Part shown: piece after piece, positions 59,168 to 63,656 of the stretch | How positions within the stretch are numbered: position 1 is the stretch's first letter | Layout: each line of letters begins with the position of its first letter | Assembly: GCF_010668805.1 (NCBI RefSeq) | Contig: NZ_WUFT01000009.1 | Coordinates: 186,001 to 250,000, forward strand | Length of the DNA: 64,000 nucleotides | Origin: Rhizobium phaseoli | GTDB lineage: Bacteria > Pseudomonadota > Alphaproteobacteria > Rhizobiales > Rhizobiaceae | Direction: 5' to 3' | Translations under genes and position numbers: made by a program | Notes under the pieces: generated by a model | What the model saw: only the letters and a program-made list of their open reading frames with translations | The model's database searches: none | What the model was told of the DNA's origin: nothing

Positions 59168-59791
59168 TCATTTCTTCGGGACTGTTTTCGGTTTCGGTTG
59201 ATACAGACGCCGTTTAACGTTTGAGCGCAGAGCGTTGCGAACATCCTTATCCACCATCGACAGGTCGAACCATTCGGAATCAAAATAGCCGCCGCACCAC
59301 CGGGTGGTTTCAGCATATTCTGGATCGTCCCGATCTGCGATGATCTCCAGGAAACGCTCATACCCCGATACGCCACCAACATCTTCGGGCGGTCGCGCCC
59401 TTTCGCCGGCGACACAGCTCCCGTGTTTTGGCGTAGCGGCGAGCGTCAAGAACTCCTCGACCGCGACCGTGTGTCGCCAGCCATCCCCGAAATCATAGTG
59501 GTAGCTGAAGACGGCACCTTGCTCGAAGTCCAGCAAGCGCACCTCGCTCTGGTCGAACACCCGAGGATCGTCATCGGTCGAATCCTCCGTCAGGATCTCG
59601 ACGTCGCCATACCGTAAACCACCGATGCGGAATTCATAAAGGTGATAATTCCACCAGTTAAATGCTGCCTGAATACCGAGATGCAGATGCTCCAGGTTCC
59701 AATGAACAGGCAGGACCAATCGGCGCCAAACGTCCGGCTTCATCTCGTCGATGGAAACTCTGACTTGCACGGCGTTTGCGGGTTTGAACAT
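59168..59791 (-). CDS. pRiA4b ORF-3 family protein
   Basis: A 207-residue protein of the family named after a gene on plasmid pRiA4b. The pattern VRVSIDEMKPDVWRRLVLPV, LHLGIQAAFNWWNYHLYEFR and YHYDFGDGWRHTVAVEE is diagnostic. The C-terminal part has ARPPEDVGGVSGYERFLEII and DSEWFDLSMVDKDVRNAL. It is widespread on plasmids and mobile DNA and has no proven function. A start five codons upstream is possible; neither has a good ribosome site. Confidence 0.9.
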   Translation of the reverse strand: MFKPANAVQVRVSIDEMKPDVWRRLVLPVHWNLEHLHLGIQAAFNWWNYHLYEFRIGGLRYGDVEILTEDSTDDDPRVFDQSEVRLLDFEQGAVFSYHYDFGDGWRHTVAVEEFLTLAATPKHGSCVAGERARPPEDVGGVSGYERFLEIIADRDDPEYAETTRWCGGYFDSEWFDLSMVDKDVRNALRSNVKRRLYQPKPKTVPKK

Positions 59792-59944
59792 GGCACGAAT
59801 GAACAAGGTCAGGCTGCGATCGTCAAGAAGGCGCTCAATTGTGACACCGTATTCGAACTGGATCGTTCTTCACGGCATCTCTGCCCGCTTGTGCAGCCCT
59901 CGAAGCTTACTATCTCTGGTGTAACCCCGAACTGGAGCATCGCC

Positions 59945-60121
59945 ATGGATCGAAACGCGGCCGAAATGCTGCCGGAATTCTATATTGAAATTCTTCCGCC
60001 GGACCGCGATGAAACGTGTGCACCGGATGCAACGACATGTCCGTGCTGTCGAAGGTTACGTCCGGCCTCGAGCATGGATGACGATGGCTGCGGGATCTGC
60101 GACGAATGCATGGCACCGTGA
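59945..60121 (+). CDS. Small zinc-binding protein, 58 aa
   Basis: The product MDRNAAEMLPEFYIEILPPD ends with TTCPCCRRLRPASSMDDDGC and GICDECMAP. Two C-x2-C pairs (CPCC and CDEC, with CGIC between) give a plausible zinc knuckle. GGAG lies 8 bases before the ATG at 59945, and the longer frame upstream has poor composition. It overlaps the next gene by 16 bases. Function unknown. Confidence 0.6.
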   Translation: MDRNAAEMLPEFYIEILPPDRDETCAPDATTCPCCRRLRPASSMDDDGCGICDECMAP

Positions 60122-60432
60122 ACGCGGGTGGCAATGCACCTCCACTAATTCAGGCGACGTTCGAAGACGCGCTTGCGAAATTGCCGGACGGCTATGTCGA
60201 CGGACATTTTGGCAATCGACCATGGGGCGTGACCGTCAAGCGGTCGGAGGACGGCAAGCGGACTTGGCGCTATGGCGAGGAGCTTAGCGGAACCGATATC
60301 GTCAGCTTCAACCTCTATCGACTGGCTGGACCTGGATCGATGCTAAAGCCGTGCGAAATCTCCTCCGCTAAGGTGATCGAATTCGTTCTCGGTTTCGAGC
60401 CTGGTCCGGCGAAAGCCGCGTCGCGTTCATAA
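60106..60432 (+). CDS. Hypothetical protein, 108 aa
   Basis: The sequence includes FEDALAKLPDGYVDGHFGNR, then PWGVTVKRSEDGKRTWRYGE and the strong block ELSGTDIVSFNLYRLAGPGS followed by MLKPCEISSAKVIEFVLGFE. The latter resembles small rhizobial proteins of unknown function with the segment G-T-D-I-V-S-F-N-L-Y-R. Start codons overlap the end of the previous gene (ATG at 60106, GTG at 60118). It ends 107 bases before the small RNA. Confidence 0.65.
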   Translation: MHGTVNAGGNAPPLIQATFEDALAKLPDGYVDGHFGNRPWGVTVKRSEDGKRTWRYGEELSGTDIVSFNLYRLAGPGSMLKPCEISSAKVIEFVLGFEPGPAKAASRS

Positions 60433-60538
60433 TGGCCGAAAAATGAGCACAGGGAAAATATTGCATTGCAACATATGCATGACTGCTCTGCGATCTGAGC
60501 GCTGGCGGTCGCGGCAGCCTCTGGTATCTTCACCTCAA

Positions 60539-60693
60539 CGAAGCAATGCACTTCCTCCCGCAGAGCTTCGTGTCTCAGGCGACCCATTCCTCCTCCCAAG
60601 GGAAGCCTGACGGAACAGCGGCACTCCTCCTCCCAGCCGTTGTTCAATCTTTTGGAAAGCCTGCCGCACCTCCTCCCGCGGCAGGCTTTTTCG
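60539..60693 (+). ncRNA. Small RNA with four hairpins exposing CCTCCC motifs (cuckoo/alpha-r14-like)
   Basis: Four consecutive hairpins are visible. H1: CGAAGC-aa-TGC / GCA-ga-GCTTCG (60539-60570), loop ACTTCCTCCC. H2: TCAGGC-ga-CCC / GGG-aa-GCCTGA (60575-60610), loop ATTCCTCCTCCCAA. H3: GAACAGCGGC / GCCGTTGTTC (60613-60645), loop ACTCCTCCTCCCA. H4: AAAGCCTGCCGC / GCGGCAGGCTTT (60656-60689), loop ACCTCCTCCC, followed by a T run. The CCTCCTCCC motif is complementary to the Shine-Dalgarno and is the mark of the alphaproteobacterial CcsR/cuckoo and alpha-r14 RNAs, which usually have two hairpins. The 5' end is not fixed by a clear promoter. Confidence 0.82.
60656..60691 (+). terminator. Intrinsic terminator of the small RNA
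   Basis: A perfect 12-bp stem AAAGCCTGCCGC/GCGGCAGGCTTT with a 10-base loop ACCTCCTCCC, followed by TTTTT (60687-60691). It doubles as the fourth anti-Shine-Dalgarno hairpin. Confidence 0.9.
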
Positions 60694-60721
60694 TTTTCCG
60701 ATTCAAGTCCGGATTCAGGCG

Positions 60722-61495
60722 TCAAAGCAGACCGCCCTGTTCCACCAGCTCTCCGGATTTCGAGACAATCGTCGATCCGTACGGCTCGCGCGACGAAATG
60801 ATCAGCGCGTCATTGGGTAGTGGACGGGCCAGTTCCTTTGCTTCGTCCCAGGGCGCCCGCATCCAGTTGTCCGTCTCTTCCTTCGTCAGCAACAGGACGG
60901 GCATGGCCTTCTCATGGATCGGCTTCACCAGGTCGTTGGGATCCGTTGTCAGAAATCCATAAAGATCGTCGGTGGTAAGGCCGTCCCTGACCTTTCTGAC
61001 ACTCTGCCATTGCGGCACATGAATGCCGGCAAAGAACATCAGCGACTTCTGCTCGTCGCGGGCGAACCAGGCATTCGGCACGTTGCCGCCATCTTGCCGG
61101 CTGGCCGGATCCGGTTCCGCGAAACTGGTGACCGGGACGAGACATCTGTTTTCGACGCCGAACCATCGTTTCCAGTGCGGAAAACTGAGCTTGCGCACGT
61201 TGGTCGTGCCGCGGTCGGCCTCCATGCGGATCAGTTCTTCGAGATCGAACGGCTTGCCCTTGGCCGCAAGTTTCTCCGCCTTGGCTTTGGCCGCCCTCTC
61301 AAGGGCGAAACGTGGCGAGGGCAGTCCCCAGCGCGCATGGACCAGTTGCTTCTTTCCCTCAGTGGTATTGCGGACGATCGGCCCCACCTGATCGGGGTTC
61401 ATCTGGTAGGCCGGCATCAGGTTGATCAGGCTTTCGGCGTCCTGGGCCCATTTCGCGACCCAGTCCTTGTCTTCCATGCGATAAAGGTTGCACAT
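60722..61495 (-). CDS. SOS-response-associated peptidase (YedK/HMCES family)
   Basis: A 257-residue SRAP-domain protein. The catalytic Cys2 is present (MCNLYRMED), as are the [17 protein letters not shown] segment, [11 protein letters not shown] with the glutamate, and [19 protein letters not shown] with the histidine. These enzymes form a covalent link with abasic sites in single-stranded DNA and protect them. The length fits. It converges on the small RNA and stands upstream of the ligase and imuAB genes in a DNA repair block. No LexA box was recognised ahead of it. Confidence 0.93.
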
Positions 61496-61556
61496 GCTGG
61501 ATATCCACTCCGCCGAGCTCGAATGGTGACCAATCTAGCGGATGGTACCGAATTCG

Positions 61557-62621
61557 CTACTCGAGGCAGAAGACATCGGCATTGTCCTGGCGTTCTCGCA
61601 AGCCCTTGTAGGACGGATGGCGGAGTTTGGCGTCTGTCGTCCATGCGCGAAACTCGATCTCAGCGATCAGGGTTGGCTCGACCCAGACAACGTCTGCGCT
61701 TCCGGAATAAGGCAGGGGCGGCTGCTTTCGCTTCCATCGAAGCGTGTCCAGCATCTTCCGCAATCGGATCGCCTCGGCTTCCCTGAAGCCCGTGCCGACG
61801 CTTCCGACATGCACGAGATCGCCATTGCGGTAGGCGGCGAGCACCAACGAGCCGAAGCCGGCAGGGGATGCTGTCGACCGCTCATAGCCGACGATAAAGA
61901 ACGCTTCGCTCTGGACGCATTTCACCTTCACCCAATCTCCGGTCCGGCCCAAGCGATAGGGCTGATCGAGATGCTTGCCGACGATGCCTTCCAAGCCGAG
62001 GCGGCAGACGTGCTCCAGCAGGACGGCTGGGTCGCCATCCAGTGCTTCCGATAGCCTGACGGCGCCGACCTGGTCACTCATTGAGCCGTTCAACGTGTCC
62101 TCGAGAAGGTGTCGGCGGGACCGATATTCGACACCGCGCAGATCGTGCCCGTCCAGATAAACAAGATCGAAAGCGTAAAGGACAGCGTCGGATGCCCGGT
62201 TGCCGGCTTGTTTGCCGGATGCGCCCAGCGATTGCTGCAATAGCCCGAAATCCGGCCGGCCCTCTTCGTCGAACACGACGGCTTCGCCATCGATGATCAT
62301 CGTCGCCGGCCCGAGCGCTCGTGCGGCCTGTTCTATCGCTGGAAACCGGTGTGTCCAGTCATGTCCGCCACGGGTGAGGATCCTAATCCTCTGCGGCTCG
62401 ATATGAACGGCAAGGCGATAGCCATCCCATTTCAGCTCCCAGCTCCACTCGTTACCCTTTGGTGGATGAGCCTTCAGTTGCGCCAGCGCAGGCTCGACGC
62501 GCTCGGGCATGGGATCGAAGAGCAGCTGTGGTTGGGCCGGATTTCGCTTCTTGCGCGGCCGGGAACGGATCGGGGCCTCGGTGTCACGAAGGAGGGGTTT
62601 TGATCTCGGAGGCTTCGGCAT
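61557..62621 (-). CDS. ligD-like: ATP-dependent DNA ligase (LigD-type ligase domain)
   Basis: A 354-residue ligase with a nucleotidyltransferase domain (about 40-245) and an OB fold (about 250-354). The adenylated lysine is K64 in ELKWDGYRLAV (motif K-x-D-G). Later motifs include IIDGEAVVFDEEGRPDF, LEGIVGKHLDQPYRLG, WVKVKC and, at the end, LRHPSYKGLRE typical of LigD. The polymerase and phosphoesterase domains of full LigD are missing. Such stand-alone ligase domains work with Ku in rhizobia; the two ku genes lie 35 kb away in this window. Confidence 0.92.
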   Translation of the reverse strand: MPKPPRSKPLLRDTEAPIRSRPRKKRNPAQPQLLFDPMPERVEPALAQLKAHPPKGNEWSWELKWDGYRLAVHIEPQRIRILTRGGHDWTHRFPAIEQAARALGPATMIIDGEAVVFDEEGRPDFGLLQQSLGASGKQAGNRASDAVLYAFDLVYLDGHDLRGVEYRSRRHLLEDTLNGSMSDQVGAVRLSEALDGDPAVLLEHVCRLGLEGIVGKHLDQPYRLGRTGDWVKVKCVQSEAFFIVGYERSTASPAGFGSLVLAAYRNGDLVHVGSVGTGFREAEAIRLRKMLDTLRWKRKQPPLPYSGSADVVWVEPTLIAEIEFRAWTTDAKLRHPSYKGLRERQDNADVFCLE

Positions 62622-62827
62622 CCCGACAGTTCAGCAGAAAAATCTTAAAGACACTGTGACCATCTCGACTTGTCCCTGCAATTCACACAAAGGGATTAGC
62701 GCCTGCGAACGCTCGGAAAAAAATCCGCCGCCCGCTATTCAGCTGATTTCCATGAGTATTCTGCTGATTTCTAATGTTCAGGATAATATTCCCATCCCTC
62801 CGGTTGCTTGACTCTTTTGCTGCTCGG

Positions 62828-62842
62828 GAACAGAAAGAGAAC
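62828..62842 (+). promoter_or_regulatory. LexA box (GAAC-N7-GAAC) upstream of imuA
   Basis: GAAC at 62828-62831 and GAAC at 62839-62842 are separated by exactly seven bases (AGAAAGA), the alphaproteobacterial LexA-binding direct repeat. It lies 62 bases before the imuA start codon and should put imuA-imuB under SOS control. Confidence 0.8.
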
Positions 62843-62903
62843 ATCCGCATTTTGTTCGACATGATGTCGGCCGCCAACACGACCTCGAAGGGAGCCGTGA
62901 ACG

Positions 62904-63656
62904 ATGACTGCTGCCCGTCAAAGGGTGATTTCCGATCTGCGCGAGCGCATCGCCTCGCTGGAGGGCGTGTCAGCCAGGAAGGCTGGCTGTCTGTCCTTCG
63001 GCGTGCCGGAAATCGATGCAGTCCTGCCCGGAGGTGGTCTATCCTTCGGGGCGTTGCATGAATTTGCCGGCGGCGGGTCGGGCACAGTGGACGGTGCGGC
63101 GGCAGCCCTGTGTGCGGCAGGGATAGCAGCACGCACCAAAGGCCCGATCGTCTGGTGCCTGACGCGCCCCGACCTGTTCTTTCCCGCGCTCGCTCAGGTC
63201 GGACTCCACCCCGACCGGGTGATCTTTGTCGAATCCGACAAGGAGGAAGACGTTCTGGCAAACATGGAGGAGGGGCTATCCTTTGGTGGGCTCGGCGCCG
63301 TCGTCGGTGAACTCGTTCGCCTGCCGATGGTCAGCTCGCGGCGGCTGCAGCTGGCGGCTGAGCGCACCGGCACCATGGCGCTTGCCGTCCGGCGTTGGCG
63401 ACGGCAGACGGAGGCCAATGATTTCGGGCAGCCGACGGCTTCGACCACGCGATGGCGGGTGAGCGTCATGCCATCGGAGGAATTGCCAGTGCCGGGTGTC
63501 GGACGAGCCCAATGGTTGCTGGAATTGATGCGCGTGAAAGCGGGTGAATGTGCTGAGTTTCTCGTGAGGGCGTGCGATGACAAGGGTCGTCTCGATCTAT
63601 CTTCCGGATCTGCCGACGGATCGCATTCGTCGCGCCGATCCGTCTATTCCGCCTGA
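62904..63656 (+). CDS. imuA: ImuA, translesion mutagenesis accessory protein
   Basis: A 250-residue RecA-related protein. It has GCLSFGVPEIDAVLPGGGLS followed by FGALHEFAGGGSGTVDGAAA (about 30-70), the region of a degenerate P loop, and IVWCLTRPDLFFPALAQVGL, then LVRLPMVSSRRLQLAAERTG. ImuA regulates the ImuB-DnaE2 translesion complex. It begins with ATG and lies under a LexA box. Its 3' end overlaps imuB by 80 bases, which is common for these genes. It may lie on a plasmid, as many rhizobial copies do. Confidence 0.92.
   Translation: MTAARQRVISDLRERIASLEGVSARKAGCLSFGVPEIDAVLPGGGLSFGALHEFAGGGSGTVDGAAAALCAAGIAARTKGPIVWCLTRPDLFFPALAQVGLHPDRVIFVESDKEEDVLANMEEGLSFGGLGAVVGELVRLPMVSSRRLQLAAERTGTMALAVRRWRRQTEANDFGQPTASTTRWRVSVMPSEELPVPGVGRAQWLLELMRVKAGECAEFLVRACDDKGRLDLSSGSADGSHSSRRSVYSA

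Follow-up and report, generated by a model that had tools for sequence, protein, structure and literature searches.

A conserved plasmid copy of a four-hairpin anti-Shine-Dalgarno RNA of the SmelA099 kind in Rhizobium phaseoli

Small RNAs that display anti-Shine-Dalgarno (aSD) motifs in hairpin loops make up the cuckoo family, which has been summed up as having two to four hairpins (PMC4504443). Reinkensmeier et al. described the four-hairpin RFMSmelA099 and the three-hairpin RFMSmelA075, each with CCUCCUCCC, in 2011, and the same source gives RS0680a of R. sphaeroides as a two-hairpin form (PMC3927594). RNAs of the RFMSmelA099 type are described there as occurring in several copies per genome and on each replicon, and deep sequencing and Northern blotting are reported to have confirmed the A. 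tumefaciens member L5 (PMC3927594). SmelA099 itself is listed as a 160-nt RNA encoded on the minus strand of pSymA (1328175-1328334; PMC2873474). Members of ar14, by comparison, are described with three aSD hairpins, and NfeR1 of S. meliloti masks the ribosome-binding sites of ntrB and of two transporter mRNAs with three redundant aSD motifs and thereby silences them; it is called Hfq-independent, and its promoter is reported to contain the LsrB motif TGCA-N6-GCAT within -72 to -57 (PMC10746234). In Rhodobacter, the DUF1127 protein CcaF1 is described as binding RNA, promoting the maturation of the CcsR RNAs and sharing their operon (PMC10253847, PMC12501420), and DUF1127 proteins are said to act by protein contacts as well (PMC12501420).

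The four-hairpin layout is thus not new, having been in print since 2011. The RNA considered here is a real, conserved plasmid copy of this described kind, and the copy itself is a new member. It lies within a 64,000-nt stretch, called the window below, of Rhizobium phaseoli contig NZ_WUFT01000009.1. When folded, the segment 60537-60696 forms four consecutive hairpins, each with an aSD-type loop (Table 1); for the fold of 60500-60720 the z value is -4.33, and none of 200 dinucleotide shuffles was equally low. H1 and H2 are only 3 nt apart, and the stem of H4 comprises 14 bp in the fold of 60537-60696 and 13 bp if folded alone. The first-pass annotation had proposed four stem-loops in a row with stems of 9, 9, 10 and 12 bp, aSD motifs in the loops and a terminator with a T run as the last hairpin. 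The four stem-loops are borne out both by the fold and by covariation among homologues, and the proposed stems differ by at most 2 bp from those folded. The motifs do occupy the loops, with the exception that the loop of H1, CTTCCTCCC, is one base away from the motif (45 of the 56 distinct homologues carry CCTCCTCCC at this place), and H4 is indeed terminator-like, with a T-rich 3' side and tail. A simple consensus scan reported no terminator; its loop limit of 8 bars the 10-nt loop of H4. The loops of H2 and H3 are longer than those of H1 and H4.

Table 1. Positions of the four-hairpin RNA, its upstream elements and the adjoining genes in the window
Feature	Position	Strand	Remarks
108-aa hypothetical ORF, conserved	60106-60432	+	upstream context; no Pfam match
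TGCA-N6-GCAT box (LsrB motif reported for the nfeR1 promoter)	60467-60480	+	-70 to -57 of predicted start 60537
Conserved upstream element GCAT-N2-CT(G/C)..TGC	60477-60491	+	common to ar14-type promoters
Likely -10 element TATCTT	60525-60530	+	position conserved in homologous promoters
Predicted sRNA transcript, SmelA099 homologue	60537-60694	+	158 nt; from published SmelA099 range
Hairpin H1	60538-60571	+	7+3 bp with internal loop; loop CTTCCTCCC 60551-60559
Hairpin H2	60575-60610	+	6+3 bp; loop CCTCCTCCC 60589-60597
Hairpin H3	60613-60645	+	10 bp; loop CCTCCTCCC 60626-60634
Hairpin H4, terminator-like	60654-60691	+	loop CCTCCTCCC 60669-60677; T-rich 3' side and tail
SRAP gene	60722-61495	-	convergent with sRNA; Pfam PF02586

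The Rfam model ar14 (RF02344) matches 60570-60693 of the plus strand with 103.8 bits at a gathering score of 58.8 (E-value 4.4e-18 for the 64-kb window), and this is the sole Rfam match in the window at gathering score. The match spans positions 1-123 of the 123 positions of the model, which correspond to H2-H4, so that the three hairpins with unpaired CCUCCUCCC that characterize ar14 are H2, H3 and H4, and one further hairpin lies 5' of them. Since the ar14 model of Rfam omits H1, the four-hairpin RNA of the window is annotated short. The full-length match upholds the kinship with ar14/cuckoo RNAs that had been suggested from the letters alone; the accompanying statement that such RNAs usually have two hairpins has to be corrected, as ar14 is described with three (PMC10746234), and two are found in RS0680a of R. 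sphaeroides (PMC3927594) and in the Rfam CcsR1 model. With ar14/NfeR1 the window RNA shares the full-length model match, the three aSD hairpins and an LsrB-type box at an almost equal promoter position, and it differs from them by the additional 5' hairpin. We rejected membership in CcsR1 (RF02791), for which the RNA scores 36.8 bits where the gathering score is 65.3, and in ar7 (33.6 against 60 bits). An aSD motif in hairpin loops is also common to the window RNA and CcsR1-4 of Rhodobacter sphaeroides; the latter, however, sit downstream of ccaF1 (DUF1127), whereas the window copy has no upstream DUF1127 gene and hence no operon of the CcsR1 type. The own genome contains six ar14 matches above the cut-off and two below, and two of the six, the window copy (L005) and its paralogue L004, have four motifs.

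The closest similarity is to SmelA099. Read out from NC_003037, the published range is homologous to the window RNA from the 5' start to the terminator: it opens with AATCGAAGC, 3 nt 5' of the CGAAGC of H1, and ends directly past the terminator T-run. Both RNAs are alike in their four adjacent aSD hairpins, in the 5' start relative to H1 and in the kind of terminator hairpin, and copies on several replicons are typical of the SmelA099 family and of the window RNA's kind. Four adjacent loops of the CCUCCUCCC type on variable stems, as expected of the four-hairpin branch, are present, with an H1 stem that varies little. Unlike SmelA099, the window RNA carries CTTCCTCCC in loop 1, and the 108-aa ORF and the SRAP gene which flank the window copy were not found alongside SmelA099 (L138). 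Within the RFMSmelA099 branch, the comparison was made with SmelA099.

We aligned 56 distinct sequences with four hairpins, taken from the own genome, from relatives within the genus and from plasmids; the window copy is row L005, and SmelA099 (L138) is represented by L149 of strain USDA1106, whose four-hairpin sequence is identical and which was grouped with L138. The same four-hairpin layout is thus found on other plasmids. Under one consensus structure 98.1% of the cells pair, and 24 of the 38 base pairs show changes on both sides; none of 500 shuffles reached either value, with the caveat that related sequences can exceed such shuffles, and slid controls gave 34-50% pairing. Stem conservation in relatives therefore holds for the structure overall and is least strong for H1: pairs changed on both sides number seven of eight in H2, eight of ten in H3 and six of twelve in H4. 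The corresponding figure for H1 is only three of eight because its stem hardly varies, each of the changes occurring in one or two sequences of an otherwise nearly invariant stem. A 24-base H1 consensus with at most two mismatches was found in 22 of the 199 genomes of the family sample (14 of 109 genera), and its reversed control gave no match among the genomes listed.

The position of the promoter was placed by comparison. The published start of SmelA099 aligns with 60536, and the first purine is 60537, so that the homologous RNA of the window would extend over about 60537-60694. A TATNNN begins 15 or 14 nt 5' of the CGAA of H1 in 50 of the 53 four-hairpin promoters compared, and a CTG-N2-3-TGC lies 55-58 nt 5' of this CGAA in 51 of the 53 (L157 and L025, which are without CGAA, were dropped from this set). 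The simple consensus scan reported no sigma-70 promoter, and no good -35 hexamer was seen at the window promoter. Since both the published SmelA099 ends and the fixed -10-like position place the start upstream of H1, we rejected a start after H1, and a transcript beginning after H2, which would yield two hairpins, is unlikely on the same grounds. Upstream of 51 of the 56 four-hairpin and 49 of the 75 three-hairpin RNAs there is the element GCAT-N2-CT(G/C)..TGC, for which mononucleotide shuffles predict 0.02 and 0.00 occurrences, respectively; as it is common to both, the two forms probably share a promoter design. The exact GCATTGCTGC element, in contrast, is found in 46 of 75 three-hairpin and in one of 56 four-hairpin upstream regions. 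The box at -70 to -57 of the window promoter has precisely the LsrB motif, and LsrB may bind it and control the RNA. Only 12 of the 56 four-hairpin and 19 of the 75 three-hairpin promoters have the exact TGCA-N6-GCAT, and the 64 kb hold two other exact copies on the same strand and two on the opposite strand.

We consider it very probable that the window RNA is an ar14/cuckoo sRNA of the SmelA099 branch which is transcribed from its own promoter, ends at H4 and blocks translation initiation by its aSD loops. It could be argued instead that the RNA is made, or works, as no more than the three-hairpin ar14 core (H2-H4) and that H1 is the remnant of a leader, given that Rfam models three hairpins, that NfeR1 is described as functioning with three (PMC10746234) and that loop 1 of the window RNA has a change. 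H1, however, lies inside the published SmelA099 transcript, its two helices show 97.9 and 100% pairing across the 56 distinct homologues, a Shinella plasmid copy has kept H1 with a different stem sequence, and the -10-like position is fixed 5' of H1, from which H2 is separated by the 3-nt gap; we regard a core-only RNA as very unlikely. The first-pass annotation had left the choice between a long form of the family and two fused units. The long form stands. Fusion of two complete units was rejected, as H2-H4 fill the whole ar14 model and one hairpin only is left beyond this complete three-hairpin unit; moreover, an actual two-unit tandem, at locus L033 of G039, looks different, with two sets of three motifs 126 nt apart. 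The context GCAC(C/T)TCCTCCCGC, which is common to the loops of H1 (60548-60561) and H4 (60666-60679) and sets them apart from H2 and H3, suggests that H1 may stem from a terminator-type hairpin and speaks for a fusion to this extent, although a fusion of complete units is hardly to be expected.

A further explanation is that the main partner of the RNA is a protein, such as a CcaF1-like DUF1127 protein, which it would titrate or by which it would be processed, and that aSD pairing is secondary. This would agree with a same-strand DUF1127 ORF 147-233 nt upstream of 32 of the 56 distinct four-hairpin loci and with the description of CcaF1 as an RNA-binding DUF1127 protein encoded together with the CcsR RNAs in one operon (PMC12501420, PMC10253847). 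We nevertheless hold it to be unlikely: the loops stay near-perfect aSD motifs while the stems of H2 and H3 change, as pairing with mRNA predicts, no DUF1127 gene lies beside the window copy, and DUF1127 proteins are reported to work through protein contacts also (PMC12501420).

If the window RNA is the translational regulator that we propose, transcription would start just 5' of H1 and end at H4, and the aSD loops, one of them with one change, would pair with strong Shine-Dalgarno sites of the GGGAGGAG type, thereby blocking the initiation of translation in the way described for S. meliloti NfeR1. The RNA would act in trans through redundant loops, and the mRNAs covered would probably be those for transporters. 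The loops are probably interchangeable, so that four of them may provide greater binding capacity or tolerance to processing and no new mechanism. For the window RNA we show structure, conservation, homology and, by comparison, the position of the promoter, and we infer expression, control of the LsrB type, targets and repression. Northern blots of S. meliloti gave a reliable signal for only one of six NfeR1 loci in the conditions of that study (PMC7143759), and the window copy may therefore be silent.

The pattern GGGAGGAG-N3-10-ATG was reported 55 times in the own genome (one site twice), as opposed to four times for the reversed pattern. Among the first 30 such loci (two being the same site), 20 have an ORF of at least 140 aa; the ten with shorter ORFs were left out, as were 16 of 30 for the control. 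ABC transporter Pfam domains are encoded by eight of the 20 ORFs, six of them solute-binding and two ATPase domains (L199, L201, L202, L203, L206, L208, L213 and L218), compared with one of 14 for a GAAAGGA-type control (Fisher p 0.05); a first control Shine-Dalgarno pattern had 8 sites only and was set aside. This borderline enrichment of transporters fits the target class of NfeR1 and is no proof of it, and it would apply equally to every ar14 RNA of the cell, so that the window copy is not singled out.

The link to DUF1127 is the part of this work that is worth following up. The 32 of 56 distinct loci with the upstream ORF (26 of the 41 from sampled genomes) include the paralogue L004 in the own genome, where the ORF lies 207 nt upstream. 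Among distinct three-hairpin rows the ORF is upstream in two of 26, both within locus L033 of G039. These counts refer to loci of more than 2000 bases (the four-hairpin locus L159 has fewer than 400 bases upstream), and since common descent links the rows, the contrast should not be taken as a tally of independent events. Four rhizobial DUF1127 queries gave no match in the 64-kb window at E 0.001. DUF1127 is absent from the main text of PMC3927594, and no paper naming both DUF1127 and NfeR1, under these two names, was found in a mostly non-subscription literature; the linkage between DUF1127 and the four-hairpin RNA, which mirrors the CcaF1-CcsR operon, may be new. It might be speculated that both form an ancestral rhizobial cassette equivalent to CcaF1-CcsR, in which the aSD RNA is bound or matured by the DUF1127 protein, and that plasmid copies lacking the gene, that of the window included, are mobile sRNAs which use DUF1127 proteins of the host to repress transporter and other mRNAs with a timing set by the plasmid; as a whole, this scenario is unlikely. 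L153 and L156 are likewise among the 32 loci, DUF1127 is annotated at L144 and L145 as well, and several of the linked loci have a 3'-5' exonuclease before the DUF1127 ORF and kduI after it. A distinct group of three-hairpin loci (L003, L016, L022, L024, L026, L028 and L029) has DUF1127 ORFs on the same strand 381-461 nt downstream.

Matches to the 191-nt query were obtained in 509 plasmid records, 455 of which cover at least 80% of it. The RNA is thus a multicopy riboregulator found in hundreds of plasmid records, which are almost all rhizobial and in many cases come from near-identical strains. When clusters were defined as TCCTCCC with gaps below 60 nt, 137 loci, overlapping ones included, yielded 45 clusters with four motif copies and 75 with three. 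L025, with five motifs, was counted as four in later steps, and L035 and L137, with eight motifs each, were excluded. This rule missed or undercounted loci with changed motifs (L143 and L154 entered as three, L144 and L145 were left out), and among the rows labelled three there are some four-hairpin RNAs whose motif is altered. A tree of the three-hairpin core requires at least four changes between three and four hairpins, at least three of them forced by well-supported branches; it was computed from 121 rows and 125 columns by a quick method and has few columns and long branches. These change counts speak against one clean origin of the four-hairpin form, and a single clade of four-hairpin rows was not rejected in a tree test (p-AU 0.40). 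The tandem of two three-motif units at L033/L131 (G039) lies downstream of a DUF1127 match. Similarly, L035:1273-1640 (G034, from another family of the order) has eight aSD motifs in a row like the CcsR1-4 cluster, with spacings of 49, 37, 41, 48, 40, 34 and 43, and the array starts 56 nt past a DUF1127 match.

Past the sRNA of the window, the order is SRAP, then ligD. SRAP lies downstream in ten of 59 four-hairpin rows and the 108-aa ORF upstream in ten of 59, the window's own copy counted in both cases, and 27 of 491 matching plasmid records cover at least 80% of the SRAP/ligD neighbourhood (59400-61600). We take the SRAP/ligD arrangement as no sign of a functional linkage, since it is not general in the four-hairpin branch. 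An ORF at 62904 without Pfam hit matches a gene that is annotated as ImuA in the equivalent place on two plasmids, and 60722-63656 of the window, with SRAP, a LigD-type ligase and the likely ImuA, constitutes a DNA-repair block. This block adjoins the sRNA on other plasmids too, and an ImuA match is located 263 nt past the four-hairpin RNA in L152 (a pTi plasmid) and 265 nt past it in L181.
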